Shown here one piece after another: positions 9,178 to 51,600 of a stretch of DNA of 64,000 bases. The translations under genes and the position numbers were made by a program. How positions within the stretch are numbered: the stretch's first letter is position 1; each line of letters begins with the position of its first letter. The notes under the pieces were generated by a model. It searched no databases and was not told the DNA's origin. It worked only from the letters and a program-made list of their open reading frames with translations. Source of the stretch: Amycolatopsis nigrescens CSC17Ta-90 (GTDB lineage: Bacteria > Actinomycetota > Actinomycetes > Mycobacteriales > Pseudonocardiaceae); the NCBI RefSeq assembly GCF_000384315.1, contig NZ_ARVW01000001.1, forward strand, positions 3,720,157-3,784,156, given 5' to 3'.

Positions 9178-9223
9178 GTCGTGAGTGAAAAACGTTCCCT
9201 CGGCAACACTTTTCACTCACGAC
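9178..9223. repeat. Family A palindrome, copy 1
   Basis: 46 bp, 22-2-22, 19 of 22 arm positions paired. Outer arm GTCGTGAGTGAAAA is identical to the other three copies. It ends 8 bp beyond the yceI stop codon (yceI is on the minus strand), before the dedA gene, which runs the same way. Likely the terminator of the marR-MFS-yceI operon; there is no T-tract. Confidence 0.8.
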
Positions 9224-9230
9224 CCTTCGG

Positions 9231-10052
9231 TCACAGCTCGGGCAGGGTTTCGCCCTGTACGGCCTGGATATCGAGTTCGACCTTGACCTTCGTGCCGACG
9301 GCGGCGACTCCGGCCCGCACCATCGCGTTGTAGTTGATTGCGAAATCATTGCGATGGAGCTGCGTTTCGGCATGGAACGCGGCCCGTACTCCACCCCACG
9401 GATCCGGTCCGTAACCGCCGTAACGCAGGTCGAGATCCACCGGCCGGCGCTCTCCGTGCAGGTTCAGCTCGCCGGACAGCGTCCAGCTGTCGGTGCTCCG
9501 CTGCCGCATGCCGGTACTGCGAAAAGTGATCGTCGGATAGACGTCCACCTCCAGGAAATCGGCGGAACGCAGGTGGTCGTCGCGCATTTTGATGCCGGTG
9601 TCGATACTCGCCGCGTTGATCTCCGCGTGCACCGAGGACTGTTCCGCGGGACGGCCGACCACGATCCGGCCGGACAGCTCGCTGAACCGCGCCTTGATGC
9701 TGGCGATGCCGAGGTGCCGGGCGGTGGCCACCACCGACGAGTGCATCGGGTCGATCACCCACGGCCCCGCCGGCGGCAGCTCGACTGAGTCCGCCGACGG
9801 CTGGAGCCGGATCTCACCGAGCGAGCCGGTGCCGTCCGATGCGACCTGCGCGGTGCGCGCGACCGGGGTGAACCCGGCCGCGGTGAGCACCGCCGTGTAC
9901 ACCCCGGCCGGCAGCGGCTCGGTGGCCAGCCCGCCTTTCGCGTCCGCGGCGACCCGTGCGACCTGGTGGCCGGTCAGGTCGGTCACGGTCAGCACCGCGT
10001 GCTCCACGGCCCAGCCTTCGGCCGTGCGCACGTCCGCCCGCAGCCCGCTCAT
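9231..10052 (-). CDS. YceI-family protein with N-terminal prealbumin-like domain
   Basis: 273 residues. Residues 1 to about 85 form a carboxypeptidase-regulatory-like (transthyretin-type) beta domain (VLTVTDLTGHQVARV ... LPAGVYTAVLTAAGF). From about residue 93 (WVIDPMHSSV) comes a full YceI lipocalin-like domain ending in KVKVELDIQA; YceI proteins bind isoprenoid-type lipids. No signal peptide is visible, unlike E. coli YceI. The start overlaps the stop of the exporter gene (ATGA). The N-terminal domain resembles the three repeats at the exporter C-terminus. Confidence 0.88.
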   Translation of the reverse strand: MSGLRADVRTAEGWAVEHAVLTVTDLTGHQVARVAADAKGGLATEPLPAGVYTAVLTAAGFTPVARTAQVASDGTGSLGEIRLQPSADSVELPPAGPWVIDPMHSSVVATARHLGIASIKARFSELSGRIVVGRPAEQSSVHAEINAASIDTGIKMRDDHLRSADFLEVDVYPTITFRSTGMRQRSTDSWTLSGELNLHGERRPVDLDLRYGGYGPDPWGGVRAAFHAETQLHRNDFAINYNAMVRAGVAAVGTKVKVELDIQAVQGETLPEL

Positions 10053-12712
10053 CGACGGTCCAGCGGCGCGAACTCGTCCAGCACCTGGTCGTAGCCGAGC
10101 CGCACGTCGTGGCCGGCCTCGCCGCCGCCGACCAGGTTCACCTGGCTGGTGGCCGGCGGGTAGCCGCTGGCCACCACGGTGTACTCACCTTCCGGCAGGT
10201 CGTTGACCAGGTAGTGCCCGGCGGCGTCGGTCCTGGCCACCGCGGCCACGTTGCCCTCCTGGTCCAGCACGGTGATCCGCGCGTCCGGCACGATCCGGTC
10301 GCCGTCGGTCCTGGCGGTACCGGCCAGCCGCACGGCCCCGGCCAGCTCGACGTCGTGCCGCAGCCGCCCGCTGTCCGCCACGGTCAGCGTGACCGCGATC
10401 GGCCGGAACTTTTCGGCGCTGGCGACCAGCGTGTAGCTGCCGGCGCCGACCCCGTTGAACCGGTACACCCCGTCGTCGGTGGTGATGCAGGCCCCGGTCA
10501 CTTCGCCGCGCTCGTCGGTCAGCGTGACGGTCGCCCCGGCCAGCGCGCTGCCGCGGCCGGCCACCCGGACCACCCCGGTCAGCTCGCCGGAACCGGTGAG
10601 CGTGATGTCCAGCCTGGCCGGGGCGTTTTCGCCGACCACCACGCTGGACGCCTGCGGCTGGTGTCCGCCGGCGGACACGATCAGCACGTAGGTGCCCGGG
10701 CCGGGGGTGCTCACCGAGTACCCGCCGTCGCCGCCGCCGACGCCCCTGGACACCTGGCGGCCGCGCTGGTCGATCAGGGTCAGCGCGGCGCCCGCCACCG
10801 AGCTGCCGTCCTGTCGCCGGACGTACCCGGTGATCGGCGGTCCGCCGGTGTGCACCGGGTGCCCGGTGCTCGCGGCCGAATTGGTGATCGGGTTGGCCAT
10901 GCTCGACGTGCCGGTCATGGCGGCGTACTCACCGTTGCCGTTCTGCAGCGAGTGCCGCCCGGCGCCGACGAGCTGGGGTTCGCGGATCGCGTCCAGTGCC
11001 GCGTCCGCGTCCGCCCAGGTGGTGTCCCGGTTCGCCGGGACGAGCGTTTCGGTGGGCTCGTCCTCGAACAGGGCTTCGCCGCCTTCCAGCGTCGAAGCCG
11101 CCGGAGCACCGCTGGCCAGCGGGATCTCCTTCATGAACAGCAGCACCACGAAGGCCAGCAGCGCCACCGCGCCCGCCACGTAGAACACCGTGCTGATCGA
11201 GTCGGTGAAGCCGACCAGCACCGGCACCCTGATCTGCTCGGGCAGGTTCGCGATCCCGCTGGTGTTGGTCTGCAGGTCGCCGAGCGCACCGGCGCCGCCG
11301 GGCGGCGGGTTGCCGCCGAAGGCCTTGGTGATGTTGCCCGGCAGCACGTTGAACAGGATGGTCAGGAACACTGCGACACCCGCGGTACCACCGATCTGCC
11401 GGAAGAACGTGGCCGAAGCGGTGGACACGCCCATGTCGCGCCGCGGGCCGGCGTTCTGCACCGCGATGATCAGCGTCTGCATGCAGTTGCCGAGGCCGAA
11501 GCCGATGATCGCGGCCGCGACCAGCGGGTGCCACAGCGCGCTGTCGTACTCGACCTGGGCGAACAGGAACGCGCCCGCCGCGATCAGCAGGGTGCCGATC
11601 ACCGGGAACACCTTGTACCGCCCGGTCTTCTTGGTGAGCTGGCCGGAGATGATGGACGCGCTCATGATGCCCGCCATCAGCGGCAGCATCAGCAGCCCGG
11701 ACTCGGTCGGCGTGTAGCCCTGCACCACCTGCATGTACTGCGGGATCATCATGATCGCGCCGAACATCGCGACGCCGACGATGATGCCGCCGATGATCGC
11801 CACGGTGAAGGTGGAGTTCTTGAACAGCCGCAGCGGGATCAGCGCGGCATCCTTCATCACGCGTTCGACCAGGATGAACGACACCACGCCGACGGCGCCG
11901 ATCACGTAGCAGAGGATCGCGCTGCCGGAGCCCCAGCCCCACTTGTTGCCCTGCTCGGCGATGATCAGGAAGGGCACCACGGCGATCACCAGGGTGAGCC
12001 CGCCCCACCAGTCGATCTTGTGGTCGTGCCGCTCGTGCGGCACGTTGAGCACCCTGGCCACCACGAACAGCGCGATGATGGCGATCGGCACGTTGATCAG
12101 AAACACCCAGCGCCAGCCGCTGATCTCGAAGCCGCCGATGCTGCCGAGCTTGTCGAACCCGGCGAAGAAGCCGCCGAGCACCGGCCCGAGCACCGTCGAG
12201 ATGCCGAACACGGCGAGGAAGTAGCCCTGGTAGCGGGCCCGTTCCCGGGGCGGCACGAGGTCGCCAAGGATGGTCATGGCCAGCGACATCAGGCCACCGG
12301 CGCCGAGGCCCTGCACGGCGCGGAACGCGGCCAACTCGTACATCGAGGTCGCGAACGAGGACGCCACCGAGCCGACCAGGAAGATCGAGATCGCGATCAG
12401 GTACAGCGGCTTGCGGCCGTAGATGTCGGAGAGCTTGCCGTAGATCGGCGTGACGATGGTCGAGGTGATCAGGTAGGCGGTGGTGATCCACGCCTGCAGG
12501 TCGAACCCGTCCAGGTCGTTCGCGATCTTGACGATCGAGGTGCCCACGATGGTCTGGTCCAGCGCGGCCAGGAACATGCCGGACATCAGGCCGATCAGGA
12601 TGGTGACGATCTGCCGGTGGGACAGGTTGGGGTGGCTGTCGGTGTCCGCGGCCTTGGCCTGGTCGGCTGTCTGGTCGCCTGGTGGCGGTTGGTCTGCGAT
12701 GGAGCGAGTCAT
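10049..12712 (-). CDS. DHA2-type MFS exporter fused to three carboxypeptidase-regulatory-like domains
   Basis: 887 residues, far longer than the usual 450-550 of the family. About residues 1-535 are a 14-helix drug:H+ antiporter (EmrB/QacA class): motif LDQTIVGTS in helix 1, GKLSDIYGRKP in loop 2-3, the motif-C-like GPVLGGF. After a linker of about 95 residues come three repeats of about 85 residues (GYVRRQDG..., GVVRVAG..., GTARTDG...), each ending in a Y-LVASA-type strand. A 14-helix topology would place them in the cytoplasm, unusual for this fold. Start overlaps the MarR stop (ATGA), so the marR-MFS-yceI genes are translationally coupled. Substrate unknown. Confidence 0.92.
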   Translation of the reverse strand: MTRSIADQPPPGDQTADQAKAADTDSHPNLSHRQIVTILIGLMSGMFLAALDQTIVGTSIVKIANDLDGFDLQAWITTAYLITSTIVTPIYGKLSDIYGRKPLYLIAISIFLVGSVASSFATSMYELAAFRAVQGLGAGGLMSLAMTILGDLVPPRERARYQGYFLAVFGISTVLGPVLGGFFAGFDKLGSIGGFEISGWRWVFLINVPIAIIALFVVARVLNVPHERHDHKIDWWGGLTLVIAVVPFLIIAEQGNKWGWGSGSAILCYVIGAVGVVSFILVERVMKDAALIPLRLFKNSTFTVAIIGGIIVGVAMFGAIMMIPQYMQVVQGYTPTESGLLMLPLMAGIMSASIISGQLTKKTGRYKVFPVIGTLLIAAGAFLFAQVEYDSALWHPLVAAAIIGFGLGNCMQTLIIAVQNAGPRRDMGVSTASATFFRQIGGTAGVAVFLTILFNVLPGNITKAFGGNPPPGGAGALGDLQTNTSGIANLPEQIRVPVLVGFTDSISTVFYVAGAVALLAFVVLLFMKEIPLASGAPAASTLEGGEALFEDEPTETLVPANRDTTWADADAALDAIREPQLVGAGRHSLQNGNGEYAAMTGTSSMANPITNSAASTGHPVHTGGPPITGYVRRQDGSSVAGAALTLIDQRGRQVSRGVGGGDGGYSVSTPGPGTYVLIVSAGGHQPQASSVVVGENAPARLDITLTGSGELTGVVRVAGRGSALAGATVTLTDERGEVTGACITTDDGVYRFNGVGAGSYTLVASAEKFRPIAVTLTVADSGRLRHDVELAGAVRLAGTARTDGDRIVPDARITVLDQEGNVAAVARTDAAGHYLVNDLPEGEYTVVASGYPPATSQVNLVGGGEAGHDVRLGYDQVLDEFAPLDRR

Positions 12713-13251
12713 GCGGTGTGTTCCCCCTTGGCCTGAGCCTGAGCGGGCTCGTCGGCGATCTGCGGAGTGTGTAGTTCCATGTCGGAGTTGAGCCGGTCGA
12801 AGAGCCGGTTCAGCGTCTGGCGGTCTTCCTCCGGCCAGTCGGCGAGTACGCCGGCCAGCCAGAGGTTCCGCTGCTTGCGGTTCTCTTCGAAGACCCGGTG
12901 CCCCTCAGCGGTGGGTGCCAGCAGGCAGGCGCGGCCGTCCTCGGGATCGGACTGGCGCTCGACCAGGCCGTGCTGCACCAGTGAGCTGCTCTGCCTGCTG
13001 ATCGTGGAGATCTCGGAGTGCAGCGCTTCGGCCAGCTTGCTGGTGCGCTGCGGCCCGTCGTGGATCAGGGAGAACAAGATCGCGTAGGCGGCTCGCTCGA
13101 TGCCGTCCGGGCCCTGCTTCGCGTGCTGGGACTTGACCTTGTTGATCAGGCGGATGAACCGGACGAGCTGGTGGCCGAGCTGGTCCGCGAGGTCCAGTTC
13201 GGCCGGTGTCGCCGGGCCGGCGTCATGGGGCCGATCGGTGCTGAGTGCCAT
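12709..13251 (-). CDS. MarR-family transcriptional regulator
   Basis: 180 residues from the ATG at 13251 (a GTG one codon earlier is possible). The winged-helix core is visible: GPQRTSKLAEALHSEISTIS (recognition helix region), then SLVQHGLVERQSDPEDGRACLLAPTAEG (wing). MarR proteins are ligand-responsive repressors of efflux genes. This one heads the operon with the MFS exporter and yceI, and a tandem TTGC/GCAA operator lies about 30-60 bp upstream, so autoregulated repression of the operon is very likely. Confidence 0.9.
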   Translation of the reverse strand: MALSTDRPHDAGPATPAELDLADQLGHQLVRFIRLINKVKSQHAKQGPDGIERAAYAILFSLIHDGPQRTSKLAEALHSEISTISRQSSSLVQHGLVERQSDPEDGRACLLAPTAEGHRVFEENRKQRNLWLAGVLADWPEEDRQTLNRLFDRLNSDMELHTPQIADEPAQAQAKGEHTA

Positions 13252-13282
13252 CACGTGGGTCTTTCGTAGAGAAATGTCTTAT

Positions 13283-13312
13283 TTGCCTGCTGCAACTAGT
13301 TGCCTAGAGCAA
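13283..13312. promoter_or_regulatory. Tandem MarR-type operator
   Basis: The layout is TTGC-N5-GCAA, then CTAG, then TTGC-N5-GCAA: two identical 13-bp dyads on centres 17 bp apart, with GCAACTAGTTGC forming a third perfect palindrome across the join. It lies 32-61 bp upstream of the marR start. Two in-phase sites fit cooperative binding of two MarR dimers. Confidence 0.65.
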
Positions 13313-13379
13313 GGATGCACCCACGGTGACGGTTTCTGCCACTGGTTTACGCCGAGTGTGTGGCAAGACACTTTAGTTG

Positions 13380-13694: not shown

Positions 13695-13802
13695 TACCCG
13701 CATGGTGCGGGCGGAAACCGAGGTCGGAACGGGTGTCGCGGAATTCCGCATCGGTATTGCGGAGGGATGATTGCGAACACGCCGCGTGTCGGGAGGTAAC
13801 CG

Positions 13803-16810: not shown

Positions 16811-16817
16811 CCTTTAG

Positions 16818-16870
16818 TCCGTGAAGGTGCCCTTGCCTACCTTCAAGGTAGGCAAGGTGCCCTTCACGGA
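16818..16870. repeat. Family B palindrome, copy 1
   Basis: 53 bp, 26-1-26 around a central TTCAA, 23 of 26 positions paired (the mismatches are one 3-bp block). It sits between the convergent ArsR-SRPBCC and Kelch genes, 7 bp past the first stop. The Kelch stop codon (16864-16866) lies inside its right arm. Likely bidirectional terminator. Confidence 0.8.
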
Positions 16871-18084
16871 CGCCAGGCGCGGGCGGGGGTGGAGAGGACG
16901 CGGGGGGTGCGGACGCCGGGGCGGACTTCGCCGCTGATCACCAGCAGCTCGTCGTCCCAGGTGACGGCCGGGGTGGTCACCGGCGGCGGTCCGGGGAACA
17001 GGCCGGCCACCTCCCACCGCCGCCGGCGCAGGTCGTAGCGCAGGATCTCGGTGTTGTCGCCGGTGTGGTGGTCGTAGATCCAGGTGATCGCGTCGTTGTG
17101 CACAGCCCATTCCGGCGAGCCCGGTGGATACCGGGCGGCTAACGCGGTTTCGCGCTGGATCAGGTTCCAGCGGTCCAGATCCTTGTCCCCGCCGACGACG
17201 AGCAGATACCGGTCGTCCACCGGGTAGGCCAGTCCGGCGGTGACGCACCAGGGCAGGTCCGCCTCCCGTTGCCAGCGGGCGCGGACCGGGTCGTAGGAGT
17301 AGACGTCACGGTGGAACCGCCATTCGCCGTCGCGTTGCCCGCGCCCGCTGAGCAGGAAGAACCGGCCACCGAGGGCGGCGCCGACGGCGACCGTGCGGGG
17401 TTCGCCGGGCCAGCGCGGCAGCACCTGCCAGCCGGTGTGCGGGCGGTCGGTGTCCAGCGCGAAGAAGTCGCCGCCCTCGGCGATGTACACCGTGGAGCCG
17501 ATCATCCCGGCCACCGCGTAGGACATCGGCCTCGGCAGCGGCGGCAACGGCTCGGTGACCAGTTCTCCTTGGTAGCGAAGGAAGAAGACGTCCGCGAAGA
17601 TCTGCACAGGGCTGTTCTTGGCGCCGTCCGGCCCATGGCGGAAACCCTCGCCGCCGAGCACCAGCAGCCCGCGGCTGGTGCGCACGGTGGCCGCGTACGC
17701 CAGGCTCGTCGGCAGCCGCAACGGCTGGTCAATCCACTGTGGACCGTCCGGGGTTCGGCGTAGCACGAAGGCCTCGTCCCAATAGACCTTGCCGAGCACG
17801 GTGGCCCGGTTGCTGGTCAGCGCGGGCTCGGGGAAGTTCGCGCCGCCGGCGGCGAGCACGTACTCGCCGGACTGGCCGGCGACCATCCCGGCCAGCCCGA
17901 GCTGCCGCCAGAAGGGCGCGTGCACCGGTACGTGCGGTGAGAAGTCCACCCGGTTCGGCGGCAGCTCCGGCAGTTCCGTCCACAGTGGACCCGTGGAGGT
18001 GGCTTCGGCTTTTGGCGCACCCGCCATCGCCACGCCGGTCAGGCCCAGCGCGCCGAGCGCGGCCCGCCGGGTGAACCCGCTCAT
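16864..18084 (-). CDS. Kelch-repeat protein, sialic-acid mutarotase (NanM)-like, Tat-exported
   Basis: 406 residues. Twin-arginine signal at the N-terminus (TRRAALGALGL ... AEA). The mature part is a six-blade Kelch beta-propeller of the cyclically permuted mutarotase type: repeated GG motifs (AAGGANFPE, LVLGGEGF, LLSGRGQRDG, LVVGGDKD) and WxxLP-type strands. NanM interconverts alpha and beta anomers of N-acetylneuraminate, and the gene is coupled (ATGA) to an exo-sialidase that releases this sugar. The stop codon lies inside family B palindrome 1. Confidence 0.8.
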   Translation of the reverse strand: MSGFTRRAALGALGLTGVAMAGAPKAEATSTGPLWTELPELPPNRVDFSPHVPVHAPFWRQLGLAGMVAGQSGEYVLAAGGANFPEPALTSNRATVLGKVYWDEAFVLRRTPDGPQWIDQPLRLPTSLAYAATVRTSRGLLVLGGEGFRHGPDGAKNSPVQIFADVFFLRYQGELVTEPLPPLPRPMSYAVAGMIGSTVYIAEGGDFFALDTDRPHTGWQVLPRWPGEPRTVAVGAALGGRFFLLSGRGQRDGEWRFHRDVYSYDPVRARWQREADLPWCVTAGLAYPVDDRYLLVVGGDKDLDRWNLIQRETALAARYPPGSPEWAVHNDAITWIYDHHTGDNTEILRYDLRRRRWEVAGLFPGPPPVTTPAVTWDDELLVISGEVRPGVRTPRVLSTPARAWRP

Positions 18085-23010: not shown

Positions 23011-23063
23011 GCCGTGAAGGGCACCTTCCCTACCTTCAAGGTAGGCAAGGTGCCCTTCACGGA
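23011..23063. repeat. Family B palindrome, copy 2
   Basis: 53 bp, 26-1-26, 24 of 26 positions paired, centre TTCAA. It sits between the convergent FAD oxidase (ends 22997) and DedA gene (ends 23082). Likely bidirectional terminator. Confidence 0.8.
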
Positions 23064-26084: not shown

Positions 26085-26126
26085 TGGCCGGAGTCTAGTG
26101 CTGGCCGGTGTTTCCCCTGGTCAACG

Positions 26127-26172
26127 GTCGTGAGTGGAAACGGTTGCCAGGACAACACTTTTCACTCACGAC
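26127..26172. repeat. Family A palindrome, copy 2
   Basis: 46 bp, 22-2-22, 18 of 22 positions paired, the most degenerate copy. It lies between nagA and merR, which run the same way. The nagA stop codon TGA (26166-26168) is inside its right arm. Confidence 0.75.
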
Positions 26173-27347
26173 GTCTGACCTGCGCCGACGCCGGCCACCC
26201 ATTCGCCACGGCGCAGCACCTTCGACGGGCACAGGTCCGCGTCCAGCACCACCAGGTCGGCGGCCAGTCCCGCGCGCAGCGCGCCGGTCTTCCCGGTCAG
26301 GCCGAGCAGCGCGGCCGGTTTGGCCGAGGTCGCGTGCACCGCGTCCATGACGTCCAGCCGGGCGCTGTGCACCAGGTTGCGGAAGGCGTTGTCCATGGTC
26401 AGCGTGCTGCCGGCGAGCGAGCCGTTGTCGGCCAGCGTGGCCACCCCGTCCCGCACGTCCACCTCGAGCCTGCCGAGCCGGTAGCTGCCATCCGCCGCGT
26501 CGGTGGCCGACATCGCGTCGGTGATCAGCACCGTGCGGCCCTTGCCGGCGTGCGTCGCGGCCAGCCGGACCACGGTGGGGTGCATGTGCACCAGGTCGCA
26601 GATCAGTTCCACGGTGACCCGCTCGTCGTCCAGCAGCGCGCCGATCGGGCCGGGCTCGCGGTGGTGCAGCGGGCGCATCCCGTTGAACAGGTGGGTGGCC
26701 ACGGTGGCGCCGGCGTCGATCGCGGGCCGGATCTGCTCCTCCACGCCGTCCGTGTGCCCGATCGCGGCGATCACCCCGGACTCGGCCAGCTGGCGTACCG
26801 CGCGCACCCCGCCGTGCAGCTCCGGGGCGAGGGTGACCATCCGGACCGAGCCCTTGCCGGCGGCCAGCAGCCGGTCCACGGTGGCGGCGTCCGGCTCGCG
26901 CAGCGCGTCCGGGTCGTGCGCGCCGCACCTGGCCTGGGAGATGAACGGCCCCTCCAGGTGGATGCCGGCCAGCTCGCCGTCGGCCACCAGCTCGTTCAGC
27001 ACGGCCATCTGGCCGGCCAGCTCGCCGATCGGGTCGGAGACCAGGCTGGCCAGCAGGGTGGTGGTGCCGTGCCGCCGGTGCGCGGCGATGGCGCTGGTCA
27101 GCTCCTTCTCCTCGCCGCTGGAGAACGAGCCGCCGCCACCGCCGTGGCAGTGCGTGTCCACGAAGCCGGGGACCACCAGGGCGCCCTGGACGTCCACCTG
27201 TTTGCCCGGGGGCGGGGAGCCGGTCCCGACGTTCTCGATCAGCTCGCCGGAAATGGCCAGCCAGCCATTTTCCAACAGCCCGGCAGGGGTGGCCAATTTT
27301 CCACCCATGATCACGAAGTCCTCGGCGCCCGTCACATCTGACAGCAT
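26166..27347 (-). CDS. nagA: N-acetylglucosamine-6-phosphate deacetylase
   Basis: 393 residues. Amidohydrolase TIM barrel: metal motif GFVDTHCHGGGG about residue 60, HLEGPFIS, a conserved HLFNGMRPLHHREPG segment about residue 215, and the catalytic Asp in VLITDAMSATD about residue 280. It deacetylates GlcNAc-6-phosphate in amino-sugar catabolism and cell-wall recycling. The start is next to a dre-like DasR site, so DasR repression relieved by amino-sugar phosphates is expected. The stop lies in a family A palindrome. Confidence 0.93.
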   Translation of the reverse strand: MLSDVTGAEDFVIMGGKLATPAGLLENGWLAISGELIENVGTGSPPPGKQVDVQGALVVPGFVDTHCHGGGGGSFSSGEEKELTSAIAAHRRHGTTTLLASLVSDPIGELAGQMAVLNELVADGELAGIHLEGPFISQARCGAHDPDALREPDAATVDRLLAAGKGSVRMVTLAPELHGGVRAVRQLAESGVIAAIGHTDGVEEQIRPAIDAGATVATHLFNGMRPLHHREPGPIGALLDDERVTVELICDLVHMHPTVVRLAATHAGKGRTVLITDAMSATDAADGSYRLGRLEVDVRDGVATLADNGSLAGSTLTMDNAFRNLVHSARLDVMDAVHATSAKPAALLGLTGKTGALRAGLAADLVVLDADLCPSKVLRRGEWVAGVGAGQTS

Positions 27348-31782: not shown

Positions 31783-31835
31783 GCAGCGAAGGCCACCTTG
31801 CCTGCGTTCAACGCAGGCAAGGTGGCCTTCGCTGC
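31783..31835. repeat. Family B-like palindrome, diverged copy with perfect symmetry
   Basis: 53 bp, 26-1-26, all 26 positions paired, centre TTCAA as in family B. Only about 20 of 26 arm positions match family B, so both arms changed together. It starts 2 bp after the LLM stop and lies 97 bp upstream of fba on the same strand. Confidence 0.8.
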
Positions 31836-36893: not shown

Positions 36894-36894
36894 C

Positions 36895-41584: not shown

Positions 41585-41591
41585 GCCTTAG

Positions 41592-41644
41592 TCCGTGAAG
41601 GTGCCCTTCCCTACCTTCAAGGTAGGCAAGGGCACCTTCACGGA
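41592..41644. repeat. Family B palindrome, copy 3
   Basis: 53 bp, 26-1-26, 25 of 26 positions paired, centre TTCAA. It lies between the convergent purA (ends 41584) and osmC (ends 41648) genes. Likely bidirectional terminator. Confidence 0.82.
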
Positions 41645-41647
41645 CGA

Positions 41648-43777: not shown

Positions 43778-44754
43778 GGACATTTAGCTACCGGCGCGCG
43801 AACGCGCTCGAAGACGCACTGGCGGCGCTGCGCGAGCCGGGCACGCAGCTGCTCGCGGGCGGGACAGAGCTGGTCAACTGGCTCAAGGAGGGCATCGAGT
43901 CGCCTTCCGGCCTGGTCGACATCACCGGCCTTGACCTGGCCGGCATCGAGCACGGACCGGACGGGCTGACCCTGGGCGCACTGGTCCGGATGAGTGACGC
44001 CGCCGCCGATCCGCACCTTCAGCGTGACTATCCGGTTTTCACCCAGTCCTTGCTGAAGGCCGCTTCGCCGCAGCTGAGGAACATGGCCACCCTCGGCGGC
44101 AACCTGATGCAGCGCACCCGCTGCCCGTACTTCCGCGCGGACACCGCGCTGCCCTGCAACAAACGCGCGCCCGGTTCCGGCTGCTCGGCCAGGCACGGCG
44201 AAAACGGGTCGCACGCGATCTTCGGCTGGAGTGACGAGTGCGTCGCCACCCACCCGTCCGATCTCGCGGTGGCGCTGTCCGCGCTGGACGCGGAGGTCTT
44301 GGTGCGTGGTGAGAACGGCGAGCGGCGGATTCCGGCGGCGGAGTTCCACCGGCTGCCCGGCGAGGAACCCGCCAGGCACAACGAACTGGCCCCGGACGAG
44401 CTGATCACCGCGATCCGGCTGCCCGCCACGGCAAGGGCCTCGCATTACCTGAAGGTGCGGGAGCGGGTGTCCTACGAGTTCGCGGTGGTCTCCGCGGCCG
44501 CCGTGGTCGAGGTCGAAGGGGGCGTGCTCACCTCGGCGAAGGTGGCGCTCGGCGGGGTCGCGCACCGGCCGTGGCGGCTGTACGAGGCGGAAGCCGCGCT
44601 GCCCGGTATCGCGCTCGATGACGTGAAGGGCCTCAGGGCCGCCGTCGCCGAATCTTTCACCGAGGCGAAACCCTTGTCCGGCAACGAGTACAAGGTGGTG
44701 CTGGCGCAGCGGGCTGCGGTCCGCGCGCTGCGGGACGCTGGAGCGACGGCATGA
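43774..44754 (+). CDS. Molybdenum hydroxylase FAD subunit with 4Fe-4S insertion (PaoB type)
   Basis: 326 residues; ATG overlaps the previous stop (ATGA). FAD-binding motif LAGGTELVNWLKEG (about residues 26-40) and ATLGGNLMQRTRCPYF. Four Cys at about residues 116, 126, 136 and 155 (TRCPYF, LPCNK, GSGCSA, DECVA) match the extra 4Fe-4S cluster of PaoB/HcrB-type subunits, absent from ordinary CoxM proteins. Passes electrons from the 2Fe-2S subunit to FAD and on to the acceptor. Confidence 0.9.
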   Translation: MRTFSYRRANALEDALAALREPGTQLLAGGTELVNWLKEGIESPSGLVDITGLDLAGIEHGPDGLTLGALVRMSDAAADPHLQRDYPVFTQSLLKAASPQLRNMATLGGNLMQRTRCPYFRADTALPCNKRAPGSGCSARHGENGSHAIFGWSDECVATHPSDLAVALSALDAEVLVRGENGERRIPAAEFHRLPGEEPARHNELAPDELITAIRLPATARASHYLKVRERVSYEFAVVSAAAVVEVEGGVLTSAKVALGGVAHRPWRLYEAEAALPGIALDDVKGLRAAVAESFTEAKPLSGNEYKVVLAQRAAVRALRDAGATA

Positions 44755-46862
44755 ACGCCGGACTGCGGAGGCCGGACGGGCCGGCCAAGCTCACCGGCGC
44801 CGCGCGGTACACCGCGGACCAGCCGGTGCCGGACGCGCTGGTCGCGGCGCTGGTCGGCGCCACCGTGCCGACCGGCAGGTTGACCGGCCTGGACGTCGAG
44901 CGGGCGGCCGCGGCACCCGGGGTGGTCCGCGTGCTGGGCCGGGCGGACCTGCCGCCGCTCACCGAGGTCAGCGCGCCACCGGCCGGGCACGTGCTGCCGA
45001 TGCGGGACGACCTCGTGCACCACGAAGGCCAGGCGGTGGCGATCGTGCTCGCGCAGACCGCCGAGCAGGCGCGATACGCCGCGGGTCTGGTCGAGGCGAC
45101 CTATGCCGAGGTCACGCCCCCGCTGTTGTTCGGGCAGGCCGAGGACGTGGTGCCGGTGGGCGGCAACGTGCTCGGTGAGCCGGACGAGCGCAAGGGCGAC
45201 CCCGAAGATGGCCTTGCCGTCGCGGACGTGGTCGTCTCGGAGACCTACGGCACCGCGGACCGGCACCACAGCCCGATCGAGCCCGCCGCCACGACCGCGT
45301 GGTGGGAGGGCGGGGAACTGGTCGTGCACGCGTCGGTGCAGGCCGCCGGGCTGACCCAGCAGGCGCTAGCCGTCGTCTTCGGCCTGCGCCCGGAACAGGT
45401 CCGGGTGCATTGCCGCTACATCGGCGGCGGTTTCGGCTCGAAGGGCTATCTGTGGCCGCAGGTGGTGCTGGCCGCGGCCGCCGCGAAGGCGGTGGAGCGG
45501 CCGGTCAAGCTGGTGCTGACCAGGGCGGAGATGTTCACCATGGCCGGGCACCAGCCGGCCACCAGGCAGGTGGTCACGCTCGGCGCCACGGCCGACGGTG
45601 ATCTCACCGCGATCCGGCATCACAGCAGCAACGCCAGTGCCAGGGCGGTGGACTACGCGGAGGCCACCACGCACACCAGCACCTGGCTCTACCGCAGCCC
45701 GGCGATCGAGACCGCGTTCCGGATCCAGCGGGTGGACCGGCCGGGGCCGACCCCGATGCGCGCGCCGCACGAGGGGCCGGGCATGTTCGCGCTGGAGTCC
45801 GCGATGGACGAGCTGGCCTACGGACTGGGCATGGATCCGGTGGAACTTCGGCTGCGCAACGAACCCGAGGTGGATCCGCTCACCGGGCGCCCGTTCTCCT
45901 CGCGCAAGCTGGTCGAATGCCTGCGCGAGGGCGCCGACCGCTTCGGCTGGGCGGACCGACCCGCCGCCACCGGTGCCCTGCGCGATGGGGACGACCTGGT
46001 CGGCTGGGGAATGGCGGTGGCGTCCATGGACACCTTCCGCAGCCCGTCCGCGGTGCGCCTCCGGGTGGACGCGGACGGCCACGTGGTGATCGAAAGTTCC
46101 GTGCAGGAGATCGGCACCGGGCTGCCGGCGATGGTGCGGGCGGCAGCCGCCGAAGTGCTCGGCTGTGCCCCGGACGACGTGGACCTGTCGCACGGGGACA
46201 CCGGTCTGCCGCCGCACGGCGGCACCATCGGCTCGATGTCGACCATGGGTCTGGGCTCGGCGGTGCAGGCGGCCGCGGCGGATGTGCTGGCGAAACTCGG
46301 CGCGGAGCCGGGTGGCGGCCGTCCGCTGGCGGACCTGATGGCCGAAGCGGGCCTGGACGAGCTGACCGCCGAGGGCCGCTGGGCGCCGGAGGCGAGCGCA
46401 CTGGTCGGGGGACGTTCGGCCGAGTATTCGATGCACACCTACGGCTCGATCTTCGTCGAGGTGCGGGTGGACGCGGAGCTGGGGCTGGTCCGGATGAGCC
46501 GGGCTGTCGGCACCTACGGGGCCGGCCGGATCCTGAACCCGCTGGCCGCGCGCAGCCAGATGATCGGCGGCATCACCTGGGGCTACGGCCAGGCGGTGCT
46601 GGAGGAGTCGGTGTTCGAGCCGGATCTCGGCCGGTTCCTGTCCAAGAACCTGGCCGGTTACGTGGTGCCGGTGAACGCAGACATCGGCGAGATCGATGTG
46701 TCCTTTGTGGACGATGAGGATCGGCTGGCCAGCGCGATCGGCGCGAAGGGCATCGGCGAGCTTGGTGCGGTCGGTGTTTCGGCGGCCGTCGCGAACGCCG
46801 TCTTCCACGCCACCGGCCGGCGCGTCCGCAACCTGCCGATCAAGATTCCAGACCTGCTTTAA
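44751..46862 (+). CDS. Molybdenum hydroxylase large (Mo-cofactor) subunit (PaoC type)
   Basis: 703 residues; ATG overlaps the previous stop (ATGA). Two aldehyde-oxidase domains: N-terminal a/b hammerhead (KLTGAARYTADQPVPDAL) and the molybdopterin-binding domain with GGGFGSKGYLWP, the PMRAPHEGPG segment and, near the C-terminus, AKGIGELGAVG with the catalytic Glu. Oxidises an aldehyde or N-heterocycle. With the two preceding subunits it is a complete alpha-beta-gamma hydroxylase; substrate specificity unknown, PaoABC-like aldehyde oxidation is plausible. Confidence 0.93.
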   Translation: MNAGLRRPDGPAKLTGAARYTADQPVPDALVAALVGATVPTGRLTGLDVERAAAAPGVVRVLGRADLPPLTEVSAPPAGHVLPMRDDLVHHEGQAVAIVLAQTAEQARYAAGLVEATYAEVTPPLLFGQAEDVVPVGGNVLGEPDERKGDPEDGLAVADVVVSETYGTADRHHSPIEPAATTAWWEGGELVVHASVQAAGLTQQALAVVFGLRPEQVRVHCRYIGGGFGSKGYLWPQVVLAAAAAKAVERPVKLVLTRAEMFTMAGHQPATRQVVTLGATADGDLTAIRHHSSNASARAVDYAEATTHTSTWLYRSPAIETAFRIQRVDRPGPTPMRAPHEGPGMFALESAMDELAYGLGMDPVELRLRNEPEVDPLTGRPFSSRKLVECLREGADRFGWADRPAATGALRDGDDLVGWGMAVASMDTFRSPSAVRLRVDADGHVVIESSVQEIGTGLPAMVRAAAAEVLGCAPDDVDLSHGDTGLPPHGGTIGSMSTMGLGSAVQAAAADVLAKLGAEPGGGRPLADLMAEAGLDELTAEGRWAPEASALVGGRSAEYSMHTYGSIFVEVRVDAELGLVRMSRAVGTYGAGRILNPLAARSQMIGGITWGYGQAVLEESVFEPDLGRFLSKNLAGYVVPVNADIGEIDVSFVDDEDRLASAIGAKGIGELGAVGVSAAVANAVFHATGRRVRNLPIKIPDLL

Positions 46863-46875
46863 CTCACCTGGGGGT

Positions 46876-46921
46876 GTCGTGAGTGAAAAGTGTTGCCGGG
46901 GCAACACTTTTCACTCACGAC
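46876..46921. repeat. Family A palindrome, copy 3 (perfect)
   Basis: 46 bp, 22-2-22, all 22 positions paired; best preserved copy. It begins 13 bp after the stop of the molybdenum hydroxylase operon and lies upstream of a same-strand XRE gene. Likely operon terminator. Confidence 0.85.
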
Positions 46922-47014: not shown

Positions 47015-47902
47015 ATGGCCCAAAAGAAAAGAAGGACCCCCGCGCGATCGCGGGAAATCGGCGCTGTGCTTGGTGAGGTGCGTACGCGCGCGAAGCTGAC
47101 GGAGCGCGCGTTGGCGCGAAAGATGGGTTGTTCGGAGAGCAAGATCTCCCGGATGGAGAACGGCGCGCGCGGCGCCACCGAGTTCGACGTGATCACCTTC
47201 ATGGCGCACTGCGGCTGCCCGAACGAGGAGATCCAAGGTGTGCTGGCGTTGGTGCGGGAGGACAACGACAGCTACCGCCTTCGCCCCCACGGCGACCAGA
47301 TCCCGGACGATCTCGGCGCCCTGATCGCCCAGGAAGCCACGGCTGGAGGCATCGCTGCCTTCGAGCCGCAGTTGATTCCCGGTATCTTGCAGACTCGCGA
47401 ATACGCACGCGCGCTCTTTCATGCGTTCGGTATTACGCCGAAGGAGAAGATCGAGTCGTGTGTCGTGCGCCGCATCAACAGGCAGAAGCTGCTGCGTCGG
47501 TCTGAACCCGTTCGATTCACCTTCTTCGTGCACGAGCAGGCCTTTCGCGGGGTCATCGGTGGCAGTCGCGTGATGCAGGAACAACTCCTAAAGTTGATCT
47601 TCGAAACCTCGCAAGACCACTGCGTGATTCGGGTGGTCCCGGAGCCGGCTTTGGTCGGTGGCATTCCTGGCGGGGCCTTCAGGCTGATGAGGTATGCCGA
47701 CAGCGGCCCGGTGGCGTATGTGCCGCTCTTGAACTCAAGTCTGTTCTTCGAGGAGCCGTCGGACGTGTCGGCATATCAAGAGGTCCTCTCTTACCTGCCC
47801 AGGCTCGCATTGAGTGGGCAGGAGTCGAGGCACTGGCTTGCCGAACTGGCAAGTGACTACGAGAGGCGGGCCGACGTTGCCGAAGAACTTCAGCGCGCCT
47901 GA
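47015..47902 (+). CDS. XRE-family regulator with DUF5753 domain
   Basis: 295 residues. Helix-turn-helix about residues 15-75 (AVLGEVRTRAKLTERALARK, CSESKISRMENG) and a DUF5753 domain starting near FEPQLIPGILQTREYARAL. No DUF397 partner is adjacent, unlike the pair at 13803. Base use is richer in A/T and in less favoured codons than its neighbours, suggesting a later acquisition. TAGCGT 6 nt before the ATG, leaderless layout. Its end overlaps the convergent CGNR gene by 13 bp. Confidence 0.9.
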   Translation: MAQKKRRTPARSREIGAVLGEVRTRAKLTERALARKMGCSESKISRMENGARGATEFDVITFMAHCGCPNEEIQGVLALVREDNDSYRLRPHGDQIPDDLGALIAQEATAGGIAAFEPQLIPGILQTREYARALFHAFGITPKEKIESCVVRRINRQKLLRRSEPVRFTFFVHEQAFRGVIGGSRVMQEQLLKLIFETSQDHCVIRVVPEPALVGGIPGGAFRLMRYADSGPVAYVPLLNSSLFFEEPSDVSAYQEVLSYLPRLALSGQESRHWLAELASDYERRADVAEELQRA

Positions 47903-48471
47903 TGGCGGGTGCGGTAGGCGCTGACCTTGTGCCGGTTGCCGCAGCGCTGCATGGAGCACCAGCGGCGGTTGCCGGGGCGTGAGGTGTCCAGGAAGACCAG
48001 CTTGCAGCCGTCGCCTTCGCAGCGGCGTACCCGGCTGGCCGAGGGGCCGCCGATCAGTTCGATCGCGTCGCGGGCGGCGGCGCCGAGCACCTGAACGCCG
48101 GTGATCGGGGTCGCCCAGCCGCGGGCGCCGCTGTTCGGGACCAGCCGCGGCCGCAGCGTGGCGCCCGCGGAGTCGTTGATCAGCGTCAGTTCGCCGGACC
48201 TTGGGCGTTTGCCCGCCGCCAGCCGGTTCGCTGCCGAGCGCATGCTGCCGCGGAAGTCCCGGATCCGGTCCAGTTCGGCGGGCCGGATCCGGAAGTCCTC
48301 GGCGGCCAGCGGCCCGGACAGGGCCAGCCGCGAACCGGCCAGCCACTCCGCCAGCGCGCCCGCCTCCGTCAACAGCTCCGGATCACCCGTGAGCAGCAGT
48401 TCCAGGCAGAAGGCACCCGGGTCGAACGAGTAGCGCTCGCCATCAGGGCCGGTGAGCTGCCGGGCGGTCAT
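47890..48471 (-). CDS. CGNR zinc-finger regulator (ABATE domain)
   Basis: 193 residues. N-terminal ABATE-like domain, then the C-terminal zinc finger: CEGDGCKLVFLDTSRPGNRRWCS and MQRCGNRHKVSAYR (C-x4-C ... C-x4-C with the CGNR signature), described here by its Cys pairs. CGNR proteins are probable DNA-binding regulators. TATGCT lies 6 nt before the ATG, a leaderless layout. Convergent with the XRE gene. Confidence 0.88.
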   Translation of the reverse strand: MTARQLTGPDGERYSFDPGAFCLELLLTGDPELLTEAGALAEWLAGSRLALSGPLAAEDFRIRPAELDRIRDFRGSMRSAANRLAAGKRPRSGELTLINDSAGATLRPRLVPNSGARGWATPITGVQVLGAAARDAIELIGGPSASRVRRCEGDGCKLVFLDTSRPGNRRWCSMQRCGNRHKVSAYRTRHQAR

Positions 48472-48488
48472 GTAACCAGCATAACCAG

Positions 48489-50141
48489 TTAGCTGAGCCT
48501 GGAGGTCAGCGCGTTCGTCAGCGCCAGCTCTTCCAGGTCGAGCTCGCGCAGCACCTTGCGCACCACGTCGTCGTCCACCCGGCCCGCCTCGCGCTCGGCG
48601 AGCACGGTCTCCCGCTGGGTGATCAGCAGCGCCTTGCGCGCCCTGGTGAACGCCGCGTGCGGGCTAGCCTCGCGTTCCTCCGCGCTGAGCGAGATCGCCG
48701 CCACCGCGCCCCGGTACCGGGTCTCCACCAGCGCCTTGAGCCTGGCCGACAGCTTCTCCGCGCGTTCCTCGCTGATGTCCAAATTGGACAGCATTTCCGG
48801 CAGCAGCTCGTCCAGCTTCGCCATCGCGGCCTTCATCGCGGCGGACCGGGCTTCCAGCTCCTCCGCCTCGTCGCGTTCCGCTTCACCGGGGTCGCGCACC
48901 TTCAGCACCCGGATCAGCGTGGGCAGCGTGAGCCCCTGCACCAGCACGGTGCCGATCGCCACGCTGAACGCGAAGAGCTGGATCTCGTCCCGCCCGGGGA
49001 ACGGGTCGCCGGTCGCGGTCACCAGCGGCACACCGGTGGCCGCGGCGAGCGTGACCACCCCGCGCATGCCTGTCCAGGACAGCACCGTCAGATACCGCCA
49101 GGACGGCGCCGCCCGCTCCCGGCCGAACAGCCGCACCGCCTGCGGCAGCGTCGCGCTCAGGAAGACGTACGGAATCCGCACCGCCATCGTCACCACCAGC
49201 ACCACCAGCGCGCACACGACCAGCGTGCCGTTGTCGCGGGCGTTGCTCTGCACGCTTTCCAGCACGAACGGCAGCTGCAAGCCCATCAGCGCGAAGACCA
49301 GCGCCTCCAGCAGCACGTCGATCGACGCCCAGACCGAGGAGTCCTGCAGCCGGGTGGCCGGCCCGGCGTGCAGCGATCTGTTGCCGAGGTACAGCCCGGC
49401 GGCGACCACCGCCAGCACCCCGGAACCGCTGAAGTCCGAGGAGAACGGGTGCAGGTGCTCGGCGGTCACGTACACCGCGAACGGCACGATGATGCCGATG
49501 GTGGACTCCATCAGCGGGTCGTCCAGCTTGCGCCGGATCAGGCCGACCAGCAGCGCGCCGGCCAGCCCGACCGCGATGCCGAGCACCGCGGCCACCAGGA
49601 AGACCAGGAAACCGTGTCCGATCGAGCCCGCGGTACCGAGCACCGCAGCCAGGGTGATCTTGTAGAGGGTCAGCGCGGCGGCGTCGTTGACCAGCGACTC
49701 GCCGGTCAGCACGGTCATCAGCCGCCGGGGCAGGCCGAGCCGCCGTCCGATGGCGACCGCGGTGACCGCGTCCGGCGGCGCCACCACCGCGCCGAGCACC
49801 AGCGCGGAGGCCAGCGGCAGGTCCGGCAGCAGCAGGTGCACGGTGAACCCGACCACCAGCGCGGTCACCACCACCAGCAGCACGCCGAGCGCGATGATCG
49901 GCCGCAGGGTGGCGCGGAACTGGCTGAACGAGCTGTCCAGCGACGTGGAGTAGAGCAGCGGCGGCAGCACCAGGGTCAGGATCAGCTCGGGGTCCAGCTC
50001 CACCGGCGGCACCCCGGGGATGAACGAGACCCCGAGCGCCACCAGCACGATCAGCAGCGGGGCGGACAGGTTCCACCGGCGCGCGAACGCGGTCAGCCCC
50101 AGCGAACCGGCCAGCACCCCCATCAGCGTCAAGATCTCCAC
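48489..50141 (-). CDS. Na+/H+ antiporter, CPA1 family
   Basis: 550 residues from GTG 50141; a longer version is open upstream but without a supported start. About 12 hydrophobic segments with the CPA1 motif VLTGESLVNDAAALTLYK (the ND pair of the ion site) and PPDAVTAVAIGRRLGLP. Cytoplasmic tail of about 140 charged residues from around residue 405. Expected to exchange Na+ (or other cations) for H+ in pH and salt homeostasis. Confidence 0.88.
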   Translation of the reverse strand: MEILTLMGVLAGSLGLTAFARRWNLSAPLLIVLVALGVSFIPGVPPVELDPELILTLVLPPLLYSTSLDSSFSQFRATLRPIIALGVLLVVVTALVVGFTVHLLLPDLPLASALVLGAVVAPPDAVTAVAIGRRLGLPRRLMTVLTGESLVNDAAALTLYKITLAAVLGTAGSIGHGFLVFLVAAVLGIAVGLAGALLVGLIRRKLDDPLMESTIGIIVPFAVYVTAEHLHPFSSDFSGSGVLAVVAAGLYLGNRSLHAGPATRLQDSSVWASIDVLLEALVFALMGLQLPFVLESVQSNARDNGTLVVCALVVLVVTMAVRIPYVFLSATLPQAVRLFGRERAAPSWRYLTVLSWTGMRGVVTLAAATGVPLVTATGDPFPGRDEIQLFAFSVAIGTVLVQGLTLPTLIRVLKVRDPGEAERDEAEELEARSAAMKAAMAKLDELLPEMLSNLDISEERAEKLSARLKALVETRYRGAVAAISLSAEEREASPHAAFTRARKALLITQRETVLAEREAGRVDDDVVRKVLRELDLEELALTNALTSRLS

Positions 50142-50200
50142 CCGCCGATCTTCGCCCACCTCCGCCCCATCCGCCGCCCAGCGCACGCTGCGGGGAACGG

Positions 50201-50249
50201 GCCCAACGTGACGTTCGGCCAATAGAACGAGCCAAACGTCACGTTGGGC
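50201..50249. repeat. Element D: 49-bp palindrome between divergent genes
   Basis: 19-11-19, 18 of 19 positions paired; outer arm begins GCCCAACGTGACGTT. Unlike families A-C it lies between divergently transcribed genes (antiporter and AAHS transporter), so a terminator makes less sense. Operator, 5'-UTR hairpin or a mobile palindrome are open. Only one copy seen here. Confidence 0.7.
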
Positions 50250-50290
50250 GGGATCGAGGCTTCCGGTGAATGGAAGGAGGCTGGCCGTTG

Positions 50291-50328
50291 ATGTTCGCTT
50301 TGCGCATCATCGGTCGCCAAGCGAACAT
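50291..50328. promoter_or_regulatory. Operator-like dyad upstream of the AAHS transporter
   Basis: ATGTTCGCTT and AAGCGAACAT, 10 of 10 paired, separated by 18 bp, ending 22 bp before the ATG. The left half can also be read as TGTTCGC-TTT-GCGCATCA and the right as TCGGTCGC-CAA-GCGAACA, two weaker dyads, a pattern typical of IclR/PcaR-type operators of aromatic-acid genes. No IclR gene is in the window. Confidence 0.5.
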
Positions 50329-50349
50329 TCCGAGGACCGGAGGCCGCCA

Positions 50350-51561
50350 ATGCCGCCCGACACTTCCGCCCGCAACTGGGTACTGCCGCTGTGCTGGGCG
50401 GCCGTGCTGCTGGACGGCTTCGACCTGGTGGTGCTCGGCACGGTGCTGCCGGTGCTGCTGCGCGACCACGTCTGGGGGCTCACCCCTGGCACCGCGTCCG
50501 CGATCTCCACGGTCGGCCTGCTCGGCATGATGCTCGGCGCGCTCGCGATCGGCACCGTCACCGACGTGATCGGCCGCCGCAAGGCACTGATCCTCGCGGT
50601 CACCGCCTTCTCGGCGTTCACCGCCCTGTGCGCGCTGTCCCCGTCGGCCTGGGTCTTCGGCCTGCTGCGCTTCCTGGCCGGGCTCGGCCTCGGCGGCTGC
50701 CTGCCGACCGCGATCACGCTGGTCACCGAATACGCGCGCGGCGGCAAGAGCAGCAGCGCGACCACCACGATCATGACCGGCTACCACGTCGGCGCGGTGC
50801 TCACCGCGCTGCTTGGCATCGCGGTCATCCCCGGCCTCGGCTGGCGGGCGATGTTCGTCATCGGCGCGGCCCCGGCGCTGCTGCTGGTGCCGCTGATGCT
50901 GAAGTACCTGCCGGAATCCCTGAGCTTCCAGGAGCGGGCCAAGGCACCTGCGAGCCGCGAGGTGGTCAGCGGCCTGTTCAGCGGCGGCCGGCTGCGCGCC
51001 ACGATCGCTTTCTGGGTGGCTTCGTTCATGGGCCTGCTGCTGGTCTACGGGCTGAACACCTGGCTGCCGGAGATCATGCGCCAGGCCGGTTATCCGCTCG
51101 GTGCCGCGTTGAGCCTGCTGCTCACGCTGAACGTCGGCGCGGTGGTGGGGCTGCTGGTCGCCGGGTTCGTCGCGGACCGGGCCGGGGTGCGGCGGTCCAC
51201 CATCGGCTGGTTCGTCGCGGCCGCGGTGTTCCTCAGCCTGCTCAGCGTGCGGCTGCCCAGCTTCGGGCTGTACGTGGCGGTGTTCCTGGCCGGCTTCTTC
51301 GTGTTCAGCGCGCAGGTGCTGGTGTACGCCTACATCGGCCGCACCTACCCGGCCGCCAACCGCGCGACCGGGCTCGGCTGGGCTGCCGGCGTCGGCCGGA
51401 TCGGCGCGATCTCCGGACCGCTGCTCGGCGGCGCGCTGCTGACGGCGGGAATCGCCTACCCGTGGGGCTTCTACGCGTTCGCCGTGGTCGGTGCCCTCGG
51501 CGCGGTGGCCATCACCGCCGGCCGCGCCAAGGCCACCGAGCCTGCCCACGCCGGGTCGTGA
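50350..51561 (+). CDS. MFS aromatic acid:H+ symporter (AAHS family)
   Basis: 403 residues from ATG 50350 (GGAGG 8 nt upstream). Twelve helices; AAHS signature in helix 1 LLDGFDLVVLGTVLPVLL and the loop 2-3 motif VTDVIGRRKALI; second-half motif FVADRAGVRRS. PcaK/BenK-type carriers import benzoate, 4-hydroxybenzoate or similar with protons. No aromatic catabolic genes are adjacent. Its stop lies inside family A palindrome 4. Confidence 0.9.
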   Translation: MPPDTSARNWVLPLCWAAVLLDGFDLVVLGTVLPVLLRDHVWGLTPGTASAISTVGLLGMMLGALAIGTVTDVIGRRKALILAVTAFSAFTALCALSPSAWVFGLLRFLAGLGLGGCLPTAITLVTEYARGGKSSSATTTIMTGYHVGAVLTALLGIAVIPGLGWRAMFVIGAAPALLLVPLMLKYLPESLSFQERAKAPASREVVSGLFSGGRLRATIAFWVASFMGLLLVYGLNTWLPEIMRQAGYPLGAALSLLLTLNVGAVVGLLVAGFVADRAGVRRSTIGWFVAAAVFLSLLSVRLPSFGLYVAVFLAGFFVFSAQVLVYAYIGRTYPAANRATGLGWAAGVGRIGAISGPLLGGALLTAGIAYPWGFYAFAVVGALGAVAITAGRAKATEPAHAGS

Positions 51562-51600
51562 GTGAAAAGTGTTGCCGGAACAACACTTTTCACTCACGAC
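51555..51600. repeat. Family A palindrome, copy 4
   Basis: 46 bp, 22-2-22, 20 of 22 positions paired (the two innermost differ). The AAHS gene TGA stop (51559-51561) lies in the left arm. It separates the convergent AAHS and GDPD genes and ends 1 bp before the GDPD stop. Likely bidirectional terminator. Confidence 0.82.

Follow-up and report, generated by a model that had tools for sequence, protein, structure and literature searches.

A repeated 44-bp palindrome at gene ends in Amycolatopsis and its bacterial family

Introduction

REP elements are short (20-40 bp) palindromes that occur in high copy number in intergenic DNA. They are reported in GTAG- and CGTC-tagged forms; the GTAG REPs are linked to RAYT enzymes and the CGTC REPs are said to be without a dedicated transposase (PMC3733652). 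In E. coli, approximately 11% of predicted REPs are reported to have a stop codon no more than 15 nt away (PMC12306157). A study of Streptomyces clavuligerus counted 535 highly structured RNA 3' ends, of which 353 are without a U-rich tract, and its authors relate these U-lacking ends to "I-shaped" terminators or to Rho-dependent transcript ends (PMC8269248). The uptake sequence (USS) of Haemophilus occurs as inverted dyads that have been reported as terminators (PMC5217627). In addition, template switching has been reported to homogenise the arms of inverted repeats and invert their spacers (PMC8604942), and to create and maintain RNA hairpins (PMC8794818).

The Amycolatopsis palindromes described here resemble each of these systems in part. 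Like REPs, they are short, high-copy palindromes of intergenic DNA, and they resemble the CGTC REPs as these are described in that no dedicated transposase was found for them. However, they have no Y1/RAYT-type match in 80 genomes and no fixed tag, they often hold a stop codon, their span is constant while their interior is free, and their link to stop codons is tighter than that reported for the REPs of E. coli. With the U-lacking ends of GC-rich bacteria they share a stable hairpin after the stop codon and the want of a U-rich tract. Those ends, as reported, are defined by structure, whereas here the ends and the length form one sequence common to many copies. The USS dyads offer the likeness of an inverted conserved word that forms a hairpin at 3' gene ends, but beyond its palindromes the Amycolatopsis word occurs no more often than expected, so that it is no genome-wide uptake signal, and there is no T-tract. 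Finally, paired changes in both arms and inversion of the spacer are common to the palindromes and to template switching. As described, the latter acts between the two arms of one repeat, whereas in Amycolatopsis the arms are, in addition, exchanged for types that are frequent at other sites of the same genome.

A preliminary description of this DNA knew of no described family with this sequence. Our literature search, which covered open-licence PMC articles judged mostly on titles and the beginnings of abstracts, agrees, as no description of this palindrome family was found in it.

Results

Structure of the palindrome

The window is the whole 64,000-nt stretch of DNA that was analysed, from the soil actinomycete Amycolatopsis nigrescens, and it gave no Rfam match at the gathering threshold. 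The four 46-bp palindromes that the preliminary description placed in it were recovered at the same coordinates, and the sequence check confirmed pairing at 18 to 22 of 22 positions (Table 1). Two of them had been said to supply a stop codon, and both codons do lie inside palindromes. An outer arm had been given as common to all four; GTCGTGAGTGAAAA is exact in seven of the eight arms, the exception being the left arm at 26127, which reads GTCGTGAGTGGAAA. The two arms of that copy are unlike (left GGAAACGG, right of the AAAAGTG type), and such copies suggest that the arms behave as exchangeable halves. The palindrome at 9178 lies downstream of the YceI-domain gene and ends 7 nt short of its stop codon, and the palindrome at 46876 begins 13 nt past the stop of the xanthine-dehydrogenase-type gene.

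Table 1. Palindromes and neighbouring features in the window.
Feature	Position	Strand	Remarks
Family-A palindrome	9178..9223	.	19/22 pairs; tandem junction
Family-A palindrome	26127..26172	.	18/22 pairs; supplies stop of amidohydrolase gene
Stop codon TGA of amidohydrolase gene	26166..26168	-	inside 26127 palindrome
Flanking tail, imperfect copy (consensus GTTTCCGCAGGTCAGCGG)	26110..26127	+	
Family-A palindrome	46876..46921	.	22/22 pairs; tandem junction
Family-A palindrome	51555..51600	.	20/22 pairs; between convergent MFS and GDPD genes
Stop codon TGA of MFS gene	51559..51561	+	inside 51555 palindrome
YceI	9231-10052	-	Pfam
Amidohydrolase (nagA in the preliminary description)	26166-27335	-	Pfam
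Molybdopterin-binding xanthine-dehydrogenase type	44751-46862	+	Pfam
MFS	50350-51561	+	Pfam; AAHS in the preliminary description
GDPD	51602-52717	-	Pfam

Fifty-two copies were compared in the source genome (9.11 Mb, a single contig): 25 in a 400-kb stretch picked for its richness in copies, the four in the window and 23 in loci found through the 14-mer of the outer arm. The filter accepted only copies with nearly complete ends and 12 or more pairs, and it favours symmetric copies; the interrupted or truncated copies L001, L012, L017 and L030 failed it and stand outside the 52. The conserved part is a unit of 44 bp, TCGTGAGTG-N26-CACTCACGA, rather than the 46 bp first proposed. Its ends, the outer 9 bp, are near-invariant, while most inner arms read AAAAGTGTTG and variation is seen in the six bases at the centre. 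The base next outward of the 44-mer is G or C in 104 of 104 flanks and its pairing is optional (left/right G/C in 22 copies, G/G in 15, C/C in 14 and C/G in one); the second base outward is nearly always G or C as well. A flanking tail with the consensus GTTTCCGCAGGTCAGCGG occurs in a fixed register, 16 of the 104 flanks having CAGGTCA at -11, and is loosely matched beside 16 of the 52 copies (at most four mismatches in 14, a count made without a shuffled control). Across the 400-kb stretch together with the window, exact TTTCCGCAGGTCA adjoins a palindrome in four of four cases, and in nine of 20 when up to two mismatches are allowed.

The predicted GC-rich hairpin has a mean folding energy of -29.5 kcal/mol (-36.8 to -19.5; 80 readings) and, as in a canonical intrinsic terminator, it stands just after the stop codon, with 75 of 80 gene ends at -10 to +23. 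The T-tract of such a terminator is missing, as the preliminary description had observed. The eight nucleotides after the stem hold 1.3 T on average against 1.2 in the background; at least three T occur in eight of the 80 readings, and in the background 9.8% of windows have as many. Outside palindromes the conserved words are not enriched: lone TCGTGAGTG occurs twice in 400 kb where 2.3 are expected, and lone CGTGAGTG is at or below expectation both in 400 kb (5 against 11.8) and in the window (0 against 1.9).

Position relative to genes

The copies are not placed at random with respect to gene ends, the alternative that the preliminary description had raised against its own reading. In the 400-kb stretch all 25 copies overlap a stop codon or lie within 23 nt of one, where random placement gives 2.9; in 10,000 random intergenic placements 25 was never reached. 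Fourteen of these copies lie between convergent genes against 4.0 expected, a number also never reached, and none lies between divergent genes against 7.9 expected, which occurred once in the 10,000 placements. The full set of 52 divides into 28 convergent and 24 tandem junctions with no divergent one, and most of the tandem copies directly follow the stop of the upstream gene.

The stop codon itself is inside the palindrome at 35 of the 80 gene ends that face one, at positions 4-6 of the 44-mer in 26 and at positions 8-10 in nine. These are the positions at which TCGTGAGTGA contributes a TGA; the third frame is open. A single palindrome may also terminate the reading frames of two convergent genes, with both stops inside (for example, L020 and L022). 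A further 10 of the 80 gene ends finish 2 nt before the 44-mer. Beyond the 75 close ends, one was called at -50 and four at 95-1008 nt; the far distances probably reflect missed genes. The gene calls came from a codon-score script and were not curated.

Relatives show the same bias toward gene ends, although it is looser than in the source genome. At named Amycolatopsis loci, 128 copies (nine at locus edges were left out of this count) comprise 78 convergent, 46 tandem and four divergent cases; the nearest stop is at -10 to +30 in 90 of 124 cases, and 22 of 202 gene ends have their stop within the palindrome. In stretches of single genomes, this was the case at 4 of 20 gene ends in G030, 9 of 21 in G031, 1 of 14 in G060, 0 of 13 in G026 and 0 of 8 in G004. 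One site common to G030 and G031 was called divergent in both.

Distribution of copies

The four palindromes of the window belong to a genome-wide family, so that the preliminary description, which had considered that copies might prove few, understated its own observation. The 14-mer has 197 matches in the source genome, and the end pair CGTGAGTG-N14..44-CACTCACG occurs at 186 places, 184 of them with a spacer of 24-28; the reversed controls gave 0 in both cases. Of the 80 genus genomes, the source genome included, 76 hold the end pair (interior 14-44). The number of places ranges from 0 to 496, with none in G001, G028, G058 and G072, and the reversed control gave one match in each of two genomes. 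The arm type of the source genome is its own. As an exact 19-mer it occurs 204 times here and not once in 79 other species of the genus, and a scan of named genomes, which may leave out the source genome, also gave 0 exact matches. Among the matches listed for the first few genus genomes, each species has interiors of its own and most spans are 42. Each examined genome thus has its own few arm types, and the ends and the span recur across genera.

In the bacterial family, the end pair was found in 94 of the 249 genomes sampled, which belong to 22 of the 46 genera, with up to 450 copies. Many of these genomes hold few copies, often 1-3, which may be chance matches, and a hand count gave 49 genomes and 11 genera with at least 10; the reversed control gave one match in each of two of the 249 genomes. 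Outside the family, 395 further genomes of Actinomycetota, including 15 from the same order, were searched, and only two had the end pair, with one match each. Two viral contigs gave a match.

Search for signatures of mobile elements

The palindromes satisfy the description of REPs as high-copy intergenic palindromes (186 places; 52 of 52 copies in convergent or tandem junctions), but the REP/RAYT assignment was rejected on two grounds. No Y1 transposase (PF01797) was found in the 80 genus genomes by a search that was positive in five of 14 control genomes, and there is no fixed tag, with CGTC at one end of 22 of the 52 copies and at neither end of 30. An adjacent GTAG is not possible, since position -1 of the flanks is always G or C and position -2 almost always. 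A MITE with target duplication was likewise rejected, as exact flanking direct repeats of at least 4 bp were found at none of the 52 copies and repeats of 3 bp at three. Four close-spaced pairs of copies in the source genome enclose five genes. The four that were scanned encode an AbiEi-type protein (a weak match, below cut-off), a purine-phosphorylase-family protein, a LysR regulator and a DUF5753 regulator, and have no family in common; the fifth is L112:4680-5852.

Comparison between related genomes

At the junction of the MFS and GDPD genes, whose region was scanned for palindromes in 20 relatives and which was aligned in G004, this closest relative examined has no palindrome and the gene ends with its own TGA. 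The junction at 46876 was unreadable in G004, where the downstream sequence is not homologous. In all, six junctions could be read in G004 or G058; five are without a palindrome and one holds a palindrome of another family. Those from the 400-kb stretch account for four of the former and the latter (4 of 11 sites readable in G004 and 1 of 7 in G058, the remainder having been dropped where there was no close anchor or a large rearrangement). Because no remnant stands at the readable junctions of relatives, gain in the source genome is the simpler reading; loss in G004 and G058 may nevertheless have occurred, because they are only 83.5% and 82.8% identical to it where aligned. The proposal that the palindromes are spreading and possibly mobile finds support in these junctions, in the 19-mer counts (204 against 0 in 79 species) and in the range of 0-496 end pairs.

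Concerted change was read from relatives, the source genome being without one close enough for a direct test. Over 486 kb of alignment, G030 and G031 share 90.9% identity. The G030 stretch has 12 copies, and their orthologous sites in G031 hold a member of the family in six cases, another palindrome family in one and none in two, while three sites were unreadable; for the 13 copies in the G031 stretch the corresponding numbers in G030 are six, three, one and three. At the six shared sites the alignment reaches the palindrome on both sides, yet at none of them are the two copies identical. They differ by 21 base pairs changed on both arms (three of them the centre pair) and by none changed on one arm, with one site differing at eight base pairs and another at six, and the centre, TTCTAA/TTAGAA, is inverted at three of the six. 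G060 and G026 (94.0% identity over 186 kb) share six sites out of eight copies and seven. One site is identical, 11 pairs are changed on both arms and four positions on one arm, and no inversion was found in the five sites with a comparable centre. Over both species pairs, a sample of 12 sites, both arms have changed at 32 base pairs and a single arm at four positions.

Two copies at orthologous sites are about as unlike as two copies of one genome. Their mean distance is 7.0 for G030 and G031 against 7.1 and 8.7 within the genomes, and 4.3 for G060 and G026 against 3.9 and 8.8. The retention of the ends, the rewriting of the interiors and the joint change of both arms are findings added to the preliminary description. 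In a re-pairing test, which for G002 and G004 used only 42-base copies (16 of 25 listed for G002 and 20 of 25 for G004), inner arms matched far better than random re-pairing in G030 (0.983 against 0.711), G031 (0.985 against 0.632), G060 and G026 together (0.973 against 0.751) and G002 (0.744 against 0.511). The source genome was only slightly above random re-pairing (0.912 against 0.885), and the arms of G004 paired no better than random (0.675 against 0.726). Arm perfection is not kept in every genome.

The sense strand of 24 tandem copies from seven stretches has six G-U and eight A-C mispairs, and all positions of the 24 tandem copies of the source genome have 11 and 18. RNA-level pairing is not demonstrated, because G-U is not preferred over A-C; this wobble count neither proves nor excludes an RNA function.

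Discussion

The bacterial family that holds Amycolatopsis carries a repeated 44-bp palindrome at the end of the gene on one or both of its sides. We consider it, with a probability of roughly 0.6, a gene-end hairpin that lacks a T-tract, spreads and evolves in concert. Transcribed from either side, the palindrome would form a hairpin of approximately -30 kcal/mol and fix where the message ends although it has no T-tract, either through intrinsic termination that lacks the U-tract or as a block to exonuclease after Rho termination. Its position right after stop codons and between convergent genes would follow, because such a hairpin would define the 3' end from either side. From its gene-end position and its stable hairpin, the element may be a bidirectional terminator without a T-tract or a 3'-end block. 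The term terminator, used in the preliminary description, fits the anatomy of a stable hairpin at the 3' ends of convergent and tandem genes, but it stays a proposal, since the palindromes show neither a T-tract nor a preference for G-U.

A terminator hairpin needs no conserved outer sequence, and the conserved ends ask for another reason.

The symmetry of the arms and the inversion of the centre could arise from template switching between the two arms during replication. As template switching is reported to yield paired change and spacer inversion, the symmetry is explicable without selection on RNA. It leaves unexplained, however, that arms match types frequent at other sites of the same genome, for which copying between copies or re-insertion is needed. 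Uniformity within a genome might come from ectopic template switching, in which one copy is copied from another, or alternatively from re-insertion by a putative enzyme that recognises the conserved ends. A bolder form of the latter is a mobile gene-end cassette, in which a non-Y1 enzyme recognising the TCGTGAGTG ends would insert palindromes at stops and swap them in place, including those of other families, so that genomes would rewrite their terminators in concert while the gene ends stay. We offer this tentatively, with the odds somewhat against it.

Several other explanations were weighed. The element could be a selfish, REP- or MITE-like one with no host function, inserted by a putative enzyme and surviving only at gene ends since insertions elsewhere harm the cell and its built-in TGAs render those near stops harmless. 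Conserved ends around a free interior, copy numbers of 0-496 between species, junctions of relatives without the palindrome and stops in two of three frames are all in keeping with this, and the fixed-register tail beside 16 of the 52 copies, loosely matched and without a shuffled control, could belong to a longer mobile unit. However, tolerance alone predicts divergent and mid-intergenic copies, whereas the 400-kb stretch has 0 of 25 divergent against 7.9 expected. In addition, no Y1 transposase was found in 80 genomes, no target duplication in 52 copies, no gene common to the four close-spaced pairs (four of five genes scanned) and just two matching viral contigs, and we regard a purely selfish element as unlikely. 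A DNA-level site would account for the nearly invariant outer 9 bp, since a protein would bind there and recognise the outer TCGTGAGTG, or a cruciform might form between genes and, for example, absorb supercoiling between convergent ones. The end pair in 22 of 46 genera (11 with a genome of at least 10 copies, by hand count) while inner arms vary, the lack of a strand-specific G-U preference and the excess of convergent junctions (14 of 25 against 4.0) point the same way. Such a site is nonetheless improbable, as lone TCGTGAGTG is not enriched (2 against 2.3 expected in 400 kb) and the 24 of 52 copies in tandem junctions, most of them right after the upstream stop, are not predicted by a supercoiling role.

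Two readings fare worse still. That these are ordinary intrinsic terminators, alike by common descent only and each evolving independently in place, would agree with the gene-end position, the hairpin and the 12 sites common to the members of two species pairs. It is contradicted by the species-specific, homogenised arms: 204 exact 19-mers occur here against none in 79 other species, and orthologous copies are as different as copies within a genome. The missing T-tract and the junctions of relatives without a palindrome also argue against it, and we give it very little credence. A DNA uptake sequence whose inverted pairs also act as terminators, the arrangement described in Haemophilus, would have the same anatomy, an inverted fixed short word at gene ends (PMC5217627). 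Here single copies of the word are not over-represented, lone CGTGAGTG outside palindromes numbering 5 against 11.8 expected in 400 kb and 0 against 1.9 in the window, which contradicts this reading and leaves it scarcely credible.

Conclusions

Gene-end signals of bacteria appear here as a spreading, homogenising repeat family. The preferred reading, a spreading gene-end hairpin, would help to explain how transcripts end without T-tracts in GC-rich actinomycetes, and it would show that a stop codon and a hairpin can arrive as one unit. The many near-identical natural hairpins of recent history also offer a testing ground for template switching and concerted evolution in bacteria. Amycolatopsis are antibiotic producers, and the elements are candidate compact bidirectional terminators for engineering such organisms.

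Additional palindromes and flanking sequences

Apart from the 44-bp gene-end palindromes of family A, a second palindrome family is present in the window as four near-perfect copies of 51-55 bp. Their arms are CCGTGAAGG...CCTTCACGG or close to that, with TTCAA or TTCAAC at the centre, and they lie at gene ends, three of the four lying between convergent genes. An imperfect palindrome at 50201-50249 (GCCCAACGTGACGTTCGG...) lies between divergent genes and differs from the gene-end families.

At three further family-A loci of the same genome (L012, L017 and L030), a second short palindromic piece, near CGGGTGCGGGTGTCCCGC, splits the copy at its centre, giving nested repeats. Some family-A palindromes of this genome are adjoined on either side by the tail GTTTCCGCAGGTCAGCGG in fixed register (e.g., window 26110-26127). 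Another flank, TCTGCCGCGGCT, was spotted by eye beside one copy in G030 and one in G031, two genomes of the same genus, at different sites. DUF5753/helix-turn-helix proteins are encoded beside tandem palindromes at window 47066-47902 and at another family-A locus (L018:571-1332), a coincidence that may be due to chance.

Positions of second-family copies and of junctions with differing palindrome families
Feature	Sequence	Position
Second-family copy	window	16817-16871
Second-family copy	window	23012-23062
Second-family copy	window	31783-31835
Second-family copy	window	41591-41645
Junction, G031 vs G030	G031 merged stretch (starts C1:2746796)	242695
Junction, G031 vs G030	same	304676
Junction, G031 vs G030	same	321091

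Apparent family exchange at orthologous junctions

At three orthologous junctions, G031 carries a GTGAGTG palindrome whereas G030 carries a GTGAAGG or GTGAATG palindrome. Entire palindrome families seem to take one another's place at the same gene end.
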